Below, one piece after another: positions 3,290-41,342 of a DNA stretch of 64,000 nucleotides. The notes beneath the pieces are model-generated. The model was not told the origin of the DNA and did no database searches. It was given only the letters and a program-made list of their open reading frames with translations. The stretch's first letter is position 1, and each line of letters begins with the position of its first letter. The stretch is from the NCBI GenBank assembly GCA_937959265.1, contig CALGMA010000019.1, positions 124,001-188,000 on the forward strand, written 5' to 3'. A program made the position numbers and the translations under genes. The stretch comes from an uncultured Anaerolineae bacterium (lineage in GTDB: Bacteria; Chloroflexota; Anaerolineae; J036; Brachytrichaceae).

Positions 3290-4726
3290 ATGCGCACCAA
3301 AATCGTTTGCACCCTCGGACCGGCAAGTGAGGACGAAACGATCCTGCGCGGCATGATCCGCGCCGGCATGGACATCGCGCGGTTGAACTTCTCGCACGGT
3401 AGCCGGGCCGACCATGAGCGGCGCGTCGGCTTGGTGCGCCGGGTAGCCGCCGAGGAACGCGCCAGCATCACCCTGATGGGCGACTTGCAAGGGCCGAAGT
3501 TTCGCATCGGCCGGTTGACCGACCAGGGTGTCGTGTTGCAATGCGATCAGCAGGTCGTCTTCAGCGATCACCCGGATGGCGAAGCTATCCCGCTACCTCA
3601 CCCTGACCTGTTAGCCGCGATCCAGGTGGGCCAGCGCGTGCTGATTGATGATGGTGCGATCGCGCTGACCGTCGTGCATCGCATGGACTCGACCACGATT
3701 GCGTGCCGCGTGCTCAACGGCGGGGTGGTGACGTCGAACAAGGGCGTGAGTGTGCCCGGCCTGAAGATCGCTACGTCGGCGCTCACACCCAAAGATCACG
3801 ACGATGTGCAGTTCGCCATCGCGCAGCGGATGGATGCGCTGGCGATGTCGTTCGTGCGCAGCGCAGAAGATGTGTATGAGCTGCGCCGGCTCATCCAGGA
3901 TTGCGGTGGGGACCAACTCGTCGTCGCCAAGATCGAAAAGCCCGAAGCGCTCGACGACTTGCCCAACATCGTGCGCGCAAGCGATGTCGTCATGGTGGCC
4001 CGCGGCGATCTGGGCGTGGAAGCAGCGCCGGAGGAAGTGCCGTTCTACCAGAAGCGCATCATTCTGACCTGTCTGCGCGCCGGCAAGCCGGTCATTACTG
4101 CTACGCAGATGCTACAAAGCATGATCACTTCGCCGCAGCCCACGCGCGCCGAAGCCAGTGACGTTGCCAACGCGGTGCTCGACGGCACCGACGCGCTGAT
4201 GCTCAGCGGCGAGACGGCGGTGGGCGCTTTTCCTGTGCAGGCGGTGGAGGCCATGGCGCGCATTGCTGCGCGCGCCGAGGCCAGCATCATCTATCGGCCT
4301 GGCGCGCTTCCGTCGGAGTTGCGCGAGGCGCTGGCCGACGACGATAGCACTGACCATAAAACCGACGCCATCACCACCGCTGCGGTGCGCATCGCTGAGA
4401 CGGTCGGCGCGAAAGCCATCGTGTGCGCGTCGGCGTCTGGTTTCACGGCGCGCATGATCGCGCGTCATCGCCCCGCAGTGCCCATCGTATGCCTGACGCC
4501 GCATGAGCGCACCAAGCGCTATGCGGCGTTCATGTGGGGCGTGGAGGCGATGATCGCAGAGACGCGCAAAACGGATGCCGATACGTTGTTCGAGGCGGCG
4601 TGTGACGCGGCGCAATGGCTGGGCTGTGCGAAGCCCGGCGATGCGATCGTCGTCACGGCTGGCTTGCCGCTGGGCAGCGGCTCCGGCCACACCAACGTCA
4701 TCCGGTTGATAGAAGTCCGCGCATAG
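3290..4726 (+). CDS. pyk: Pyruvate kinase
   Basis: A 478-residue protein that converts phosphoenolpyruvate and ADP to pyruvate and ATP in lower glycolysis. It begins KIVCTLGPAS, followed by MDIARLNFSHGS (active-site Arg/Asn/Ser for nucleotide and K+), VVAKIEKPEAL with the catalytic lysine, MVARGDLGVE with metal ligands, and ITATQMLQSM. Length is that of a standard A-B-C domain enzyme, with no extra C-terminal PEP-utilizer domain. A strong ribosome site AGGAGG ends 4-5 nt before the ATG and fixes the start. The gene is followed at once by an MFS transporter. Confidence 0.97.
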   Translation: MRTKIVCTLGPASEDETILRGMIRAGMDIARLNFSHGSRADHERRVGLVRRVAAEERASITLMGDLQGPKFRIGRLTDQGVVLQCDQQVVFSDHPDGEAIPLPHPDLLAAIQVGQRVLIDDGAIALTVVHRMDSTTIACRVLNGGVVTSNKGVSVPGLKIATSALTPKDHDDVQFAIAQRMDALAMSFVRSAEDVYELRRLIQDCGGDQLVVAKIEKPEALDDLPNIVRASDVVMVARGDLGVEAAPEEVPFYQKRIILTCLRAGKPVITATQMLQSMITSPQPTRAEASDVANAVLDGTDALMLSGETAVGAFPVQAVEAMARIAARAEASIIYRPGALPSELREALADDDSTDHKTDAITTAAVRIAETVGAKAIVCASASGFTARMIARHRPAVPIVCLTPHERTKRYAAFMWGVEAMIAETRKTDADTLFEAACDAAQWLGCAKPGDAIVVTAGLPLGSGSGHTNVIRLIEVRA

Positions 4727-35859: not shown

Positions 35860-35912
35860 CCGGCGCGTGGCAACCTGCTCCCGCCTACTTTGTGCAAGCA
35901 TCACAACCTCTG

Positions 35913-35941
35913 TTGACAAACATTGAACGCGGGATTACATT
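35913..35941 (+). promoter_or_regulatory. Promoter of the B12-dependent MerR gene, possibly autoregulated
   Basis: TTGACA (35913-35918), spacer 17, TACATT (35936-35941). The start of transcription would be near 35948, 7 nt before the ATG. CarH operators, as I recall, use 11-bp direct repeats of the TnnACA type over the -35: TTGACA at 35913 and TGAACG at 35924 are 11 nt apart. That match is partial, so autoregulation is only a hypothesis. Confidence 0.6.
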
Positions 35942-35954
35942 AAAGATTCGCTTG

Positions 35955-37316
35955 ATGTTCGCGCAATACAGTGACGAGCCCGTTTATAACGTCAAAGCCG
36001 TTTCGCACCAAACCGGCATTGCTGCCGCGACGCTGCGCGCCTGGGAACGGCGTTATGGTGTGCCCTCGCCCCCACGCACCGATAGCGGCTACCGACTTTA
36101 CTCCGCCCGCGATGTGGCTATCATCCGTTGGCTGAAATCTCAGATCGAAAACGGTATGAGCATCAGTCAAGCCGTGCATCTGCTGCGTTCGCTCGAGGCG
36201 CAGTCCGCCGATGGGCGTATCAGCGAGCCGCTGACCGAGCGACCCTCACCGGATGCGCCGGCTTCGTATCAGCGCTTGCATGACGAAATCATTGCCGGTG
36301 CTGCTGAATTCGACGAAGCGCACATCGAGTACACATTGGCAGAGGCGTTCTCGCTCTTCCCGGTGGAAGAAGTGTGCTTGCACCTGATCCAGCCGGTGCT
36401 GGTGACATTGGGTGAGAAGTGGCATCTCGGTGAAATCAATATCGGCGTCGAGCACTTCGTGACCAATATCATGCGCCGGAAGCTATCGGCGCTGATGTCC
36501 GCATCGCCGCCGTTCAGTCGCGAGGGGCGCATCGTGAGTGGATGCGCGCCGGGGGAGTATCACGAGCTGGGTATCTTGATGATCTCGCTCTTCCTGCGCC
36601 GCCGCGGTTACGAGGTTATTTACTTAGGACAGAACATCGCCGCGGCACGCTTCCAGGAGATGCTGATGAAAACGCAGCCTGACTTGCTGATGCTCTCGGC
36701 CAGTGGGCTGATTGCAGCAGCGAACCTGCTGGATGTAGTCGAGGAGCTGCGCCATCACTCTGCTCAACTCGGCGCGACGATTGCGTTCGGCGGGCGGTTG
36801 TTCAATCGGGTGCCTGAGTTGCGACGACGCGTGCCCGGCGTGTACGTCGGCGACGACGCCCAGGCTGCCACGCGCTGGATTGGCGAATTGATAGCCGATA
36901 AAGCCGTTACAGCGGCACTGCAGGCGAACTACGCGCCGGTAGACGCTGAAACTCTAGAGGCGTTGGCCGCCTTGCGCCGCTATCATCCGGAGATCATCGC
37001 CGTCGCCACACGCCTGATTCAGAACCATGCCGGGCATGAGTCGGAACAGCAGCATCTTATGGATGCAAACGAGACCCTCCTGCAGATCGTGGAATCGGCG
37101 TTGCGCTTCGGTGAACCGGTCGTCTTGGGTGACCGGGCAAACTGGTTGTGGGATGCACTGCCCCCCAACGGCGTCTCGAGTGCGCAATTGCAACGGGTCG
37201 CGCAAGCCTTGGCCGAAGGGGCTGAAACTGTCTTGCCGTCGCTGCAATTGGATCGGCTCCAACCTTACTTCCAGGCAGTACAAGGGGCATTCGATTGGCG
37301 CGCACCTGCCGCATAG
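35955..37316 (+). CDS. MerR-family B12-dependent photoreceptor-type regulator (CarH/LitR-like)
   Basis: 453 residues. A MerR winged-helix DNA-binding domain at about 10-75 (YNVKAVSHQTGIAAATLRAW, then DSGYRLYS) is followed by a four-helix cobalamin cap domain (about 105-185) and a Rossmann B12-binding domain (190-320). W156-H157-x8-E166-H167 matches the WH-x8-EH of Thermus CarH (W131, H132, E141, H142). E201-Y-H203-E-L-G206 is ExHxxG, with H203 as lower axial ligand. So the protein should bind adenosylcobalamin, form a dark tetramer and release DNA upon light. Residues 330-453 are an extra helical region lacking in CarH. ATG 35955 chosen by domain start and promoter. Confidence 0.85.
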   Translation: MFAQYSDEPVYNVKAVSHQTGIAAATLRAWERRYGVPSPPRTDSGYRLYSARDVAIIRWLKSQIENGMSISQAVHLLRSLEAQSADGRISEPLTERPSPDAPASYQRLHDEIIAGAAEFDEAHIEYTLAEAFSLFPVEEVCLHLIQPVLVTLGEKWHLGEINIGVEHFVTNIMRRKLSALMSASPPFSREGRIVSGCAPGEYHELGILMISLFLRRRGYEVIYLGQNIAAARFQEMLMKTQPDLLMLSASGLIAAANLLDVVEELRHHSAQLGATIAFGGRLFNRVPELRRRVPGVYVGDDAQAATRWIGELIADKAVTAALQANYAPVDAETLEALAALRRYHPEIIAVATRLIQNHAGHESEQQHLMDANETLLQIVESALRFGEPVVLGDRANWLWDALPPNGVSSAQLQRVAQALAEGAETVLPSLQLDRLQPYFQAVQGAFDWRAPAA

Positions 37317-37482
37317 AATCTTCGGCGTGCCCGTTTCATCTCTTCTTGCCGCGACTCTCTCGGATGCACTTCTACCGCCGTCCAGGCTAAACAAACTTTG
37401 TGCAATTTATCAAGCGTGGTTAACTGGAATCTCAGCATATCCAGTAACCTTGCTTATCCGAACTGATTACGCATGACTGACT

Positions 37483-37514
37483 ATCCGAGACCACGGCAGC
37501 GTGGCATCTCGGAT
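37483..37514 (+). repeat. Hairpin upstream of the NmrA-like gene
   Basis: ATCCGAGACCACG (37483-37495), loop GCAG, CGTGG then a CA bulge then TCTCGGAT (37500-37514). It ends 29 nt before the next ATG. It could end the regulator transcript or structure the leader of the reductase; no T run is present. Confidence 0.5.
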
Positions 37515-37543
37515 GCAGATGCATAGCATGGGAGCCGATTGAC

Positions 37544-38500
37544 ATGATTCTGGTCACTGGTGCGAATGGCTACGTCGCTGGACATACACTTCGGCAGTTA
37601 CAAGCGCTCGCCCAACAAAACGCTGGAACGAGTCTTCGTGTGCGCGGTCTGGTTCGCAACCTCCAGCGTGCCGATAAGGTACGCGCACTCGGCGCAGAAC
37701 CGGTCGTTGGGGATGTCACCGATCCGGCATCGCTTGCTAAAGCCATGATAGACGTGGAGAAGGTGATCCACCTGGCCGCCGTCAATCGCGATCGGGGCGA
37801 GGTGACCATGGAACGTGTGAACGCTCAGGGCACGATCAACGTGGTTGAGGCGGCGAAGCAAGCCGGCGTGCAACACATCATCAACCTGGTTGGTTTGGGT
37901 GCGGATCCGAAGCGACCTTACCCCCTGGCCTACACGCAGGGCCGCGGTGTGGAAGCGATCGTCTCCAGCGGCATTCCATACACCATCTTGGAAGCCTCGG
38001 TGATCTTCGGTCCAGGCGATGAATTCCTCAACACACTGGCCGGCCTGGCGCGCCTCCCGCCGTTCATGATCGTGCCCGGCGATGGCCGGACCAAGTTCCA
38101 GCCAATCGCCGTGCAGGATGTGGCGGCCTGCCTGGTGCAGTCGCTGTCCAGGCCGGAAGTGATCAATCGTCGCTTGCAGATTTGCGGCAGCGAAGTGATC
38201 ACGCTCGAAGGCATCATAGACGCGATCCTGGCCGAGCTGCGCGTGAAGCGCATTAAGCTGCACATGCCGGTCTTCCTGTTGAAACCGGCTGTCGCCATCA
38301 TGGACGCGCTCCTGCCCAAGCCGCCGGTGACGCCCAGCCTGCTCGCGCAACTGGGCGTGGACAACGTGGCCACGGACAACGCCACAACCAAAGTGTTCGG
38401 CATCGAACCGATCAAGCTGCGCGAGGGCATTGGCTTTGTGCATGAGATGTCATTTGGCAAGTTGATGGCGCGCACTTTCGGTCGGGCCGAATATCGCTAG
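37544..38500 (+). CDS. NAD(P)-binding atypical SDR (NmrA/NDUFA9-like)
   Basis: 318 residues. TGANGYVAGHTLRQL (6-20) is the Gly-rich dinucleotide site; KVIHLAAVNRDRGE follows and the chain has VQHIINLVGLGAD, PYTILEASVIFGPGDEF and a variable C-terminus. Typical of the extended/atypical SDRs of NmrA/TMR/NDUFA9-like proteins, often without classic YxxxK. Substrate and reaction unknown. It is the first gene after the CarH-like regulator and is separated from it by 227 nt, so it may have its own control. SRPBCC and SDR genes follow in the same direction. Confidence 0.8.
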   Translation: MILVTGANGYVAGHTLRQLQALAQQNAGTSLRVRGLVRNLQRADKVRALGAEPVVGDVTDPASLAKAMIDVEKVIHLAAVNRDRGEVTMERVNAQGTINVVEAAKQAGVQHIINLVGLGADPKRPYPLAYTQGRGVEAIVSSGIPYTILEASVIFGPGDEFLNTLAGLARLPPFMIVPGDGRTKFQPIAVQDVAACLVQSLSRPEVINRRLQICGSEVITLEGIIDAILAELRVKRIKLHMPVFLLKPAVAIMDALLPKPPVTPSLLAQLGVDNVATDNATTKVFGIEPIKLREGIGFVHEMSFGKLMARTFGRAEYR

Positions 38501-38527
38501 GTACAAGATGCGAGACGTAATACACCC

Positions 38528-39031
38528 ATGCGCCACTTCGAGTATGCCTTTGTCGTGAATGCCCCGCTCGACACCGTGTGGGCCTTTCACGATGACCCGA
38601 CAGCGTTGCCGAAGGTGATGACCGGCGCGGTGAAGATGTACGTGCATCATGTGGATCGTCCGCTGCAGCCGGGCAGCCGCATTTTGATGACGATGCAGAT
38701 TGGGCCGATTCGGCGCCGCTGGAACGTCCGGCTGCGCGCAAGAGAAGCGCCGCACTTCTTCACCGACGAACAGATCGAAGGCGAAGGCCCCTTTCACAAG
38801 TGGCGCCACACGCACGCATTCGAGGCAATAGACGCTCAACGCACCCGCGTGATTGACCGCTTGGAGTATGAGCCGCCGTTCGGCTGGCTGGGCAAAATCG
38901 GCGATGCGCTGATCGGTGGCATCATCATGCGTGGCATGTTCGCCTCACGCGCCAAAGCGACACGCCGGTGGTTGGAGTCGCAAGCCTCGCGGGCCACATC
39001 TCCGGTCAGCTTGGAGCAGTCGGTGAAATGA
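38528..39031 (+). CDS. SRPBCC/polyketide cyclase-like protein
   Basis: 167 residues. The chain begins MRHFEYAFVVNAPLDTVWAFHDDPTALPKV, the START/SRPBCC fold beginning (cited as FEYAFVVNAPLDTVWAFHDD), with RVIDRLEYEPPFGWLGKIGD near 118-137 and a closing amphipathic helix. Such proteins bind a hydrophobic ligand in a deep cavity. Ligand unknown. In LitR/CarH clusters of other bacteria such ligand-binding proteins occur with SDRs, as I recall. It lies 27 nt after the NmrA-like gene. Confidence 0.82.
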   Translation: MRHFEYAFVVNAPLDTVWAFHDDPTALPKVMTGAVKMYVHHVDRPLQPGSRILMTMQIGPIRRRWNVRLRAREAPHFFTDEQIEGEGPFHKWRHTHAFEAIDAQRTRVIDRLEYEPPFGWLGKIGDALIGGIIMRGMFASRAKATRRWLESQASRATSPVSLEQSVK

Positions 39032-39068
39032 GTTGCTCAGGGTTGCGCCATGTTGGAGTAGTGACGTG

Positions 39069-39782
39069 ATGATGAAGGATAAAGTGGTGGTAATTACCGG
39101 GGCCAGTAGCGGCATCGGCCGCGCGGCTGCGCTCATGTTGGCGAAAGCCGGTGCTCAGTTGGGATTGGCCGCGCGCAACTATCATGCGCTGATGGAAGTC
39201 GCCGATGCTGCCCGTCAGCTTGGAACGCAGGCCATTGCTATCCCCACAGATGTAACGCAGAAAGACCAGGTGGCCGACATGGTGAGTGAAGTGCTGGCCA
39301 CCTTCGGACGAATTGATGGCCTGGTGAACTGCGCTGGCGTGGGCGTCATCCGGCCAATCGAACAATTGACCGAAGAGGACATTGACCGCGCCTACGCTGT
39401 GAACACCAAGGGCGTCATTCTGGTCTCTCAGGCGGTTGGAGCAGCGATGCTGAAGACCGGCGGCCGGATCGTCACACCGGTGGGCACGATGGGGCGCTAC
39501 GTGATGCGCGGCAGTGCCGCGTATAGCGCCAGCAAATGGGGTGCAGTGGGCGCGCTCAAAGCGATGGCAACGGAATGGCAACGCAGCGGCATCGGTGTCA
39601 CGCTGCTCTACCTCGGCGGCGTGAACTCGCCGTTCTGGGACGACATTGACATGAAGGTGCAGCGCGACAAGATGCTGAGCGTGGACGACGCCGCGCAGGC
39701 GATCCTCTACGCGCTACAAGCGCCGCCGAATGGCGTGTTGAACGAAATCGTGCTGCAACCGGAGAGCCACCAGTTCATCTGA
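39069..39782 (+). CDS. Short-chain dehydrogenase/reductase
   Basis: 237 residues, classical SDR. TGASSGIGRAAALMLAKAG is the NAD(P) site, NCAG replaces NNAG, T-P-V-G-T-M is where the active-site Ser usually lies (Thr at 147?, so check), and Y-S-A-S-K the catalytic Tyr/Lys. Substrate unknown; the family covers alcohols, ketones and others. ATG 39069 was preferred over the 39033 frame start because MMKDKVVVITGAS is the family beginning. It lies 37 nt after the SRPBCC gene. A strong hairpin begins on its stop codon. Confidence 0.88.
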   Translation: MMKDKVVVITGASSGIGRAAALMLAKAGAQLGLAARNYHALMEVADAARQLGTQAIAIPTDVTQKDQVADMVSEVLATFGRIDGLVNCAGVGVIRPIEQLTEEDIDRAYAVNTKGVILVSQAVGAAMLKTGGRIVTPVGTMGRYVMRGSAAYSASKWGAVGALKAMATEWQRSGIGVTLLYLGGVNSPFWDDIDMKVQRDKMLSVDDAAQAILYALQAPPNGVLNEIVLQPESHQFI

Positions 39783-39824: not shown

Positions 39825-40364
39825 TCAATTGCCGACGAACGAGCCGGCGAACATGATGCCGGCGACGGCGCCGCCCAAGATCAATGAGAGCACGAAGATA
39901 ATCACGTTGACGATGATGGCCGTCAGGATGGCCTTTTGTGTGTCCAGGCCGGCGGCCTCGCGAATGGCCAGCACAGTGGCGATGATGCCCAACACCAATG
40001 CAATGATCGAACCGATTGCTGGGATGATGGCGGGGATCTGGAAGATGTAGGTATGTCCCAGGATACGCAGCATCTCTGTCGTGTTCGTCTGGCCCTGGAA
40101 GAATCTGGATGCGACGAAGGCCGCCAGCCAGCTTCCCAGCAACCAGCCGATCAGCGCGCCTATGATAGCGAGGGCGATCGCGCCGACGAGACCGAGTGGT
40201 CCGCCCAGCAGACCGCTCACGATGCCGATCAACAGAGTGACGGCGACGACGATGATGGCTGCCGGCTGGAGCGCGTTCGGATCATGCGCCACCTCGCGAT
40301 AGACGGGTGCTTTGAACGTAATGATGCCCTGTAAGCGTTCAACCAAAGAAGCTGAAGATGTCAT
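39825..40364 (-). CDS. Yip1-domain-like multi-pass membrane protein
   Basis: 179 residues with about five hydrophobic segments after residues 1-35. The layout (LQGIITFKAPVYREVAHDP, then five helices) matches the Yip1/YIPF-like bacterial membrane family, whose function is unknown. Start ATG 40364 has a perfect AGGAGGTAA ribosome site upstream, which rules out the 40397 ATG. The adjacent DUF4013 gene lies in the same direction and may be co-expressed or independent. Confidence 0.78.
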   Translation of the reverse strand: MTSSASLVERLQGIITFKAPVYREVAHDPNALQPAAIIVVAVTLLIGIVSGLLGGPLGLVGAIALAIIGALIGWLLGSWLAAFVASRFFQGQTNTTEMLRILGHTYIFQIPAIIPAIGSIIALVLGIIATVLAIREAAGLDTQKAILTAIIVNVIIFVLSLILGGAVAGIMFAGSFVGN

Positions 40365-40429
40365 GTGTATTACCTCCTGACAAGTCTGCGTGAACAAGAT
40401 ATCCGGTCTGTGTTAAGAAAGAGCTGAAC

Positions 40430-40462
40430 TGCCGGGAGCGCCTTCTCGATGTGCTCCTGGCA
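40430..40462 (-). terminator. Possible hairpin after DUF4013 gene
   Basis: Arms TGCCGGGAGC (40430-40439) and GCTCCTGGCA (40453-40462), one wobble pair, loop 13 nt. It lies 40 nt beyond the stop of the DUF4013 gene on the reverse strand. Weak evidence. Confidence 0.4.
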
Positions 40463-40501
40463 CGTATGGCGATCACCCACACTGTTTGCCGCAAGCGCTA
40501 C

Positions 40502-41200
40502 TTAGACGACGATGTTGTTGCTGCGCACATACTGGCCGCACAGGTGGCCCAGCAACACGCCGAAATACGGTGCGGCCAGCAACGAGATGACGAGGGAAAG
40601 GATCTGGCCCAGGCACGGGATGATGTTGAGCACGCCGACGACGAGACTAAAAACGAAAGTGAGGCCGATGAAGACAACGAAGATGATCAGGTAGTCGCCG
40701 GTGTTGGCGCGGGCGATGTTCAACAACTCGCCGATGCGCAGACAAGCGCCGATGTCCCTTGTCTTGGTGTATTGGATATAGATCGCCGGCAACAGATAGG
40801 CCAGGAACAGGCCGTAGAGCGCCGAGAGACAAGCCAAGGCGAGCGTGAGCACACCAATGCCGGCTGCAGCTGCGCCCTCCAACTCCTCAGCACCTCCAGA
40901 TATGGCTGCCAGGCCACCGCTCGCAATCGTAATGATGCAGGTGAGCAGGATAATCGGTAATCCCAGGATGAGGGTGGCGACGAACAATTTCAGGCCATCC
41001 ATGAACTTTTCGCCGAGGTTGTCCCACGGCGGCAGCGGAACGTCCATGCCGTTCGATGTGTTCTTCAGGTGTTCGATGGCATAGCCGCTCAGGGCGAAGT
41101 TGAGAATGGGCACTAATGCAATCAACGCGCCAATGCCGAGTTTGCTAAGCCAGTTTTGGTCTTCTGTGGGATGTTGTACGGCCCTTTTGACGTCAATCAT
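40502..41200 (-). CDS. DUF4013 family membrane protein
   Basis: 232 residues with five to six hydrophobic segments. The first 20 residues are hydrophilic, then GIGALIALVPILNFALSGYA and later LPPWDNLGEKFMDGLKLF, which is the conserved DUF4013 wording, and PAIYIQYTKTRDIGACL. Function unknown. ATG 41200 has AAAGGAG 8 nt before it; the longer frame to 41293 is not supported. Its neighbour downstream, a Yip1-like protein, is also multi-pass, and both may act in the same membrane process. Confidence 0.82.
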   Translation of the reverse strand: MIDVKRAVQHPTEDQNWLSKLGIGALIALVPILNFALSGYAIEHLKNTSNGMDVPLPPWDNLGEKFMDGLKLFVATLILGLPIILLTCIITIASGGLAAISGGAEELEGAAAAGIGVLTLALACLSALYGLFLAYLLPAIYIQYTKTRDIGACLRIGELLNIARANTGDYLIIFVVFIGLTFVFSLVVGVLNIIPCLGQILSLVISLLAAPYFGVLLGHLCGQYVRSNNIVV

Positions 41201-41342
41201 GGATGTAGCTCCTTTGAGAAAAGGCACGGGTGCGTAACGGCCTGGCCTTGCAGCCCGCATCAAGCGCGTCCCGTGAAGTGACCCAACGCTCACCGAATTG
41301 TAGTGACCGTCTGCAAATTCACAAGTTGAGATGCGCTAACGC

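Follow-up and report, generated by a model that had tools for sequence, protein, structure and literature searches.

The window, the whole 64,000-nucleotide stretch of DNA that was analysed, corresponds to G000:C19:124001-188000 of a 4.0-Mb draft genome; among named relatives, Candidatus Roseilinea and uncultured Anaerolineae come closest, at 76-86% protein identity. The locus consists of a carH-like regulator gene followed by three enzyme genes that run in the same direction with gaps of 27 and ~37 bp between them, and candidate operators lie before both the regulator gene and the enzyme genes (Table 1). A reading of the letters alone, referred to below as the sequence-only reading, had described the enzymes as NmrA-like, SRPBCC and SDR proteins. 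The order SDR-SRPBCC-SDR stands, but the NmrA label is rejected for the first of them, which scores 65.8 bits with PF13460 versus 51.9 bits with NmrA (PF05368). Chains of the NDUFA9 group top its PDB list, and the protein is closer to atypical SDRs such as NDUFA9, the 39-kDa complex I subunit. Protochlorophyllide reductase was also rejected as an identity for the classical SDR, as the PDB chains most closely related to it are generic SDRs and no such reductase is listed among them. On the minus strand, a Yip1-domain and a DUF4013 membrane protein (39825-41293) face the cassette, an arrangement conserved in those genomes of the genus that were examined. In L042 and L046, too, the cassette is followed by a Yip1-type gene.

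Table 1. Features of the regulator locus, in window coordinates
Feature	Position	Strand	Basis or remark
Candidate auxiliary site ACTTTGTGCAA, 11-mer common to both promoter regions	35887..35897	+	Second copy at 37395-37405
Candidate CarH operator O1 TTGACAAACATTGAACG, one full TnnACA repeat and a degenerate repeat 11 bp on	35913..35929	+	Contains -35 box; rule of PMC9304148
-10 box TACATT of carH, 17 bp after TTGACA	35936..35941	+	Position conserved in relatives
carH-like gene, 453 aa: MerR head, B12 domain, photoglobin	35955..37316	+	ORF from ATG at 35955
MerR helix-turn-helix domain, residues 11-79	35985..36191	+	Pfam MerR_1, 3e-15
Predicted adenosylcobalamin-binding four-helix bundle and Rossmann domain, residues 110-301	36282..36857	+	Pfam; holds W156, H157, E166, H167, E201, H203
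Photoglobin domain, ~residues 328-446; Ala371 aligns with the biliverdin Asp and W397 with SasPcob Trp296	36936..37292	+	Model, profile, alignment
Candidate CarH operator O2 TAAACAAACTTTGTGCA, before downstream operon	37388..37404	+	In 227-bp gap before next gene
Atypical SDR, NDUFA9-like group	37544..38500	+	PDB relatives; adjoins carH in five genera
SRPBCC protein (polyketide cyclase / lipid transport superfamily)	38528..39031	+	Pfam
Classical short-chain dehydrogenase	39069..39782	+	ORF can start at TTG 39033

The regulator begins with a MerR head that is followed by both B12-binding domains, the order of CarH/LitR class I. Within the 453-aa protein, Pfam places B12-binding_2 at residues 110-180 (2.5e-11) and B12-binding at residues 192-301 (2.5e-15) and gives no domain match past residue 301, the tail at residues 330-453 included; a PHROGs search matched the HTH alone. 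Both parts of the light-type motif are present, namely the W-x9-EH cap and the ExH that supplies the lower axial His. In an alignment of 26 homologues, W156, E166, H167, E201 and H203 are invariant and G206 is Gly in 19. H157, the counterpart of the second, upper His (H132 of Thermus CarH), is variable, being His in 10 homologues as it is here, Tyr in 10 and another residue in 6. The sequence-only reading had placed W156, H157, E166, H167, E201 and H203 correctly. Translation from the ATG at 35955 yields exactly 453 aa. By sequence, the best solved relatives are Thermus CarH (2e-29) and, with a match that extends into the tail, the photocobilin SasPcob. The protein is named CarH-type here and not CarH equivalog because it scores 145.9 bits with the NCBIfam CarH equivalog, under the cut-off of 400, a model that is narrow and provides no biological definition of CarH. 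Motifs, fold, gene neighbourhood and operator-like repeats all lend good support to the CarH/LitR-type identity proposed from the letters, and this gene switch very probably allows the bacterium to sense light through vitamin B12.

The C-terminal region (residues 330-453) had been set apart in the same reading as extra, helical and unlike CarH, with a second input or a dimer surface as its possible role. The added domain is real and helical, and it is conserved in homologues of 430-456 aa, but it is of a known kind, a photoglobin. The AlphaFold2 model of the regulator, which is built on 26 sequences, has a mean pLDDT of 87; values exceed 80 for most of the tail and dip in a loop around residues 401-410. 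When VIA-align 2 is run with this model, SasPcob ranks first with Z 29.5 (8j2x) and 29.4 (8j2w), at rmsd 2.8 and 2.6 over 323 and 319 residues, respectively, spanning model residues 102-452. AbPcob is next in the list (Z 27.1), and CarH chains reach Z ~19 or less with a match that ends at residue 327 or earlier. The full-length family profile also finds SasPcob (2e-29), aligned through profile position 418 and thus via the tail, and AbPcob (3.5e-26). For the tail-only profile, the top two PDB matches are phycocyanin beta CpcB (E 0.0041) and SasPcob (E 0.018); each E-value is modest, yet both leaders are the relatives that would be expected for a photoglobin. A phmmer search of the tail alone against the PDB gave chance matches only, and a single-sequence AlphaFold model of the tail alone (pLDDT 53) was left out of the evidence. 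Because the model fold, the full-length profile and the tail-only profile all lead to SasPcob or CpcB, the tail is identified as the phycobiliprotein-like globin of photocobilins and no new domain, so the regulator can be described as a photocobilin core with a MerR head. As in photocobilins, the B12 domain is fused to the photoglobin and the overall fold matches.

Biliverdin is held in SasPcob by Asp270, and Trp296 touches both its ring D and the corrin (PMC10979010). The alignment of SasPcob with the regulator is free of gaps between these two positions and pairs Asp270 with Ala371 and Trp296 with W397. In the tail-profile alignment, when positions are counted backwards from the AL common to both, the CXRD motif of phycocyanin also has its Asp at Ala371. 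Among the 26 homologues, Asp occurs at this position in none and Trp at the other in 20. Canonical heme oxygenase (PF01126) was found in 0/9 genomes of the window's genus and in 0/20 further genomes picked as regulator carriers, all 29 being carriers or congeneric with carriers. The PF01126 search covers canonical enzymes and detected them in control genomes; across 298 sampled Anaerolineae genomes it found two. Because the clamp Asp is lost and canonical heme oxygenase is missing, the globin is likely bilin-free, and in all likelihood it functions with no biliverdin of the cell's own making. The earlier guess that the region may add a second input holds as far as the added domain goes, but biliverdin, the obvious candidate, is disfavoured. 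As a separate observation, one genome of the family, G021, is its sole member with a clear heme oxygenase (G021:C9:9412-10017).

A bilin may be bound even where the Asp is lost: AbPcob, in which His replaces it, takes up ~20% biliverdin and shows a red-light response (PMC10979010). A full two-chromophore photocobilin, in which the photoglobin would bind biliverdin or another open-chain bilin by other residues and extend the response to red, would fit with this precedent and with the retained fold and W397. Set against an Asp count of zero in the homologues, the lack of canonical heme oxygenase in the carriers examined and its near absence from the class, this alternative is quite unlikely. A non-canonical heme oxygenase, an imported bilin or another ligand may also serve the globin. 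A further proposal, which is a long shot, is that the bilin-free globin has been re-used to hold a tetrapyrrole made by these phototrophs (a porphyrin or bacteriochlorophyll intermediate), such that a single repressor would read light by B12 and pigment status by its globin and would control three enzymes of bacteriochlorophyll a metabolism. In phototrophic Anaerolineae, this metabolism is understood only in part; the bacteriochlorophyll pathway of the lineage is without several standard genes (PMC8446752).

CarH binds tandem 11-bp repeats of the form nnnnTnnACAn, and the -35 box often lies inside one of them (PMC9304148). Tandem 11-bp TnnACA repeats lie over the promoter at this locus as well; O1 and O2 of the window each hold one full and one degenerate repeat only, and several relatives carry two perfect repeats. 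The two sites share an ACAAAC(A/T)TTG core, and the 17-bp pattern drawn from them has no other site in the 4-Mb genome at one mismatch, a count that uses a pattern derived from the two sites themselves. The 11-mer ACTTTGTGCAA has exactly two copies in the 64 kb, one per promoter region, and none in 100 shuffles; it recurs in 5/8 genus members, either unchanged or altered at one or two positions. Across the family, the published rule is satisfied by 10/14 carH promoters and 6/14 operon promoters versus ~0.3 expected from shuffles, these sequences being related and hence not independent. Three consecutive repeats precede the operon in L042 (G011), and two perfect repeats precede 5/10 orthologues in distant Anaerolineae versus 0.06 in shuffles. 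A wider operator pattern applied to the whole genome yields three further sites (C4:10592, C4:52594 and C9:34866), none of which is clearly the promoter of a light-related gene, and no convincing tandem repeat lies within ~1.5 kb of crtB or the photolyase gene of the window genome.

The C4:10592 site, the operator-like TTTGCAAAGATTGTGCA at G000:C4:10592-10608, stands directly before the apparent start of a ~500-aa ORF with a predicted membrane segment. Just 5' of carH in L042 (G011:C1), where the promoter and its repeats normally lie, there is instead a long near-perfect inverted repeat, GAAACACACTATTCTCTCCCCC...GGGGGAGAGAATAGTGTGTTTCGC.

The order carH-SDR-SRPBCC-SDR is kept in five genera of the family (g1, g3, g4, g6 and g7), and outer genes change between genera, with recF upstream of the cassette only in the window's genus. 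This synteny, together with CarH-type repeats in both promoters, supports the link between the regulator and its downstream genes that was first drawn from the window. The operon could instead be a mere neighbour of a regulator that controls itself and unlinked genes, a reading consistent with the imperfect O2 and with the 8/14 operon promoters that have no rule-conforming repeat. It is nevertheless unlikely given the retained four-gene order amid changing outer genes, the occurrence of ACTTTGTGCAA in both promoter regions and nowhere else in the 64 kb, and the core common to both promoters with its 17-bp pattern, drawn from these sites, found only there in 4 Mb. The switch thus probably controls the three neighbouring enzyme genes. 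Their role might be in a light-protective pigment or lipid modification, a plain guess made by analogy because Pseudomonas LitR genes are also accompanied by an SDR (PMC9758184). In genus g7, the first SDR and the SRPBCC gene are kept, and the last SDR is a short remnant in L046 (G014, 3868-4125) and was not found in L047 (G027).

Two reaction-centre genes (PF00124) are present in each of the nine genomes of the window's genus, and the members look like phototrophs because all nine carry them; Roseilinea is published as a phototroph (PMC8446752). Within the family, reaction-centre genes occur in 14/16 genomes with the regulator versus 2/12 without it (Fisher p 0.0003, inflated by shared ancestry). 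In G013 (L043, G013:C17 7592-13663), pufL, pufM, pufC and pucC immediately precede the carH cassette and share its strand, and a terminator-like hairpin can be read from the sequence between pucC and carH. Outside the family, the orthologue is found beside phytoene synthase and desaturase-like genes (crtB/crtI-like) in L048, L050, L055 and L056 and beside a photolyase gene in L050, L051, L052 and L055, and a homologue of the window's SRPBCC protein adjoins the regulator in L050. The L050 cluster (G071:C3, 5657-15030) comprises the orthologue, a phytoene synthase gene, a desaturase-like gene, an SRPBCC gene, a gene for another FAD enzyme, a DICT-domain gene, a photolyase gene and a cytochrome P450-looking gene; a similar DICT gene lies beside the crtB/crtI-like genes of L048.

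These neighbourhoods also bear on the possibility that the repressor reads the supply of adenosylcobalamin (AdoCbl), with light sensitivity being incidental. Identical residues would bind AdoCbl either way, and the gene for the BtuR/CobO adenosyltransferase, present in the window genome, is patchy across the genus (just 5/9 genomes). However, a light signal fits better with orthologues that stand beside photolyase and carotenoid genes and, in G013, right after reaction-centre genes, and the light-type motif W-x9-EH is invariant, which makes a supply sensor very unlikely.

The explanation favoured here, with good though not full confidence, is a light-dependent repressor of the CarH type that uses AdoCbl and has a photoglobin joined to its B12 module, in other words a photocobilin with a MerR head, that acts on itself and on the downstream operon and whose globin is likely bilin-free. 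In the dark, the AdoCbl-bound oligomer would repress from O1 and O2. Cleavage of the Co-C bond by green or blue light would dissociate the oligomer and free both promoters, making carH autoregulated and the SDR-SRPBCC-SDR operon light-induced. H157 would permit a bis-His light state in the window species. The photoglobin would pack on the B12 domains and shield the corrin, as described for SasPcob, and is most likely a structural and allosteric part instead of a second chromophore.

The regulator is predicted to function as CarH does, on the architecture of a photocobilin but without the residue that marks biliverdin binding. Thermus thermophilus CarH (5C8D/5C8E; LitR/CarH class I) shares the MerR head, the B12 four-helix bundle and Rossmann domain, the W-x9-EH and ExH motifs and the tandem 11-bp TnnACA repeats that cover the -35 box. 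It differs in that it stops after the B12 domain, where the window regulator continues into the photoglobin, and the linked genes here are SDR-SRPBCC-SDR and not carotenoid genes. The photocobilins SasPcob (8J2W/8J2X) and AbDPcob (8J2Y; PMC10979010) share the B12 domain followed by a photoglobin (fold Z 29.5 and 27.1), the B12 motifs and the Trp296 equivalent, but in place of the MerR head they have either nothing or a diguanylate cyclase, and their Asp270 is Ala371 in the regulator, whose hosts are without canonical heme oxygenase. CtMerR of Chloracidobacterium thermophilum (8JBS/8JBT) is likewise a MerR-type B12 photoreceptor from another anoxygenic phototroph; its solved part is the B12 domain, which the regulator model matches to residue 315 only. 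The photoglobin family as a whole (Schneider et al. 2022, as cited in PMC10979010 and PMC11796333) shares the globin-B12 fusion and the relationship to phycobiliproteins and is predicted to regulate enzymes and transcription factors.

The kind of protein is already known because photoglobin-B12 control of transcription factors has been proposed (PMC10979010) and fusions of light-type B12 domains to HTH or bilin-binding domains have been listed (PMC11796333). A form that has a MerR head but no longer the bilin clamp, in phototrophs free of heme oxygenase and once beside reaction-centre genes, was not found described in the literature examined, a scope outside which the original photoglobin study falls. 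The analysis identifies the tail of a widespread group of Anaerolineae CarH-type regulators as a photoglobin, offers this group as a natural test of the role of photoglobin without biliverdin and links probable light sensing by B12 with a conserved set of enzyme genes that is found mostly together with type 2 reaction centres. The CarH-like protein of G021 (G021:C8:4440-5420) is shorter and probably without a photoglobin because its open frame is just 338 aa; the class Anaerolineae seems to hold CarH-like proteins both with and without this domain.
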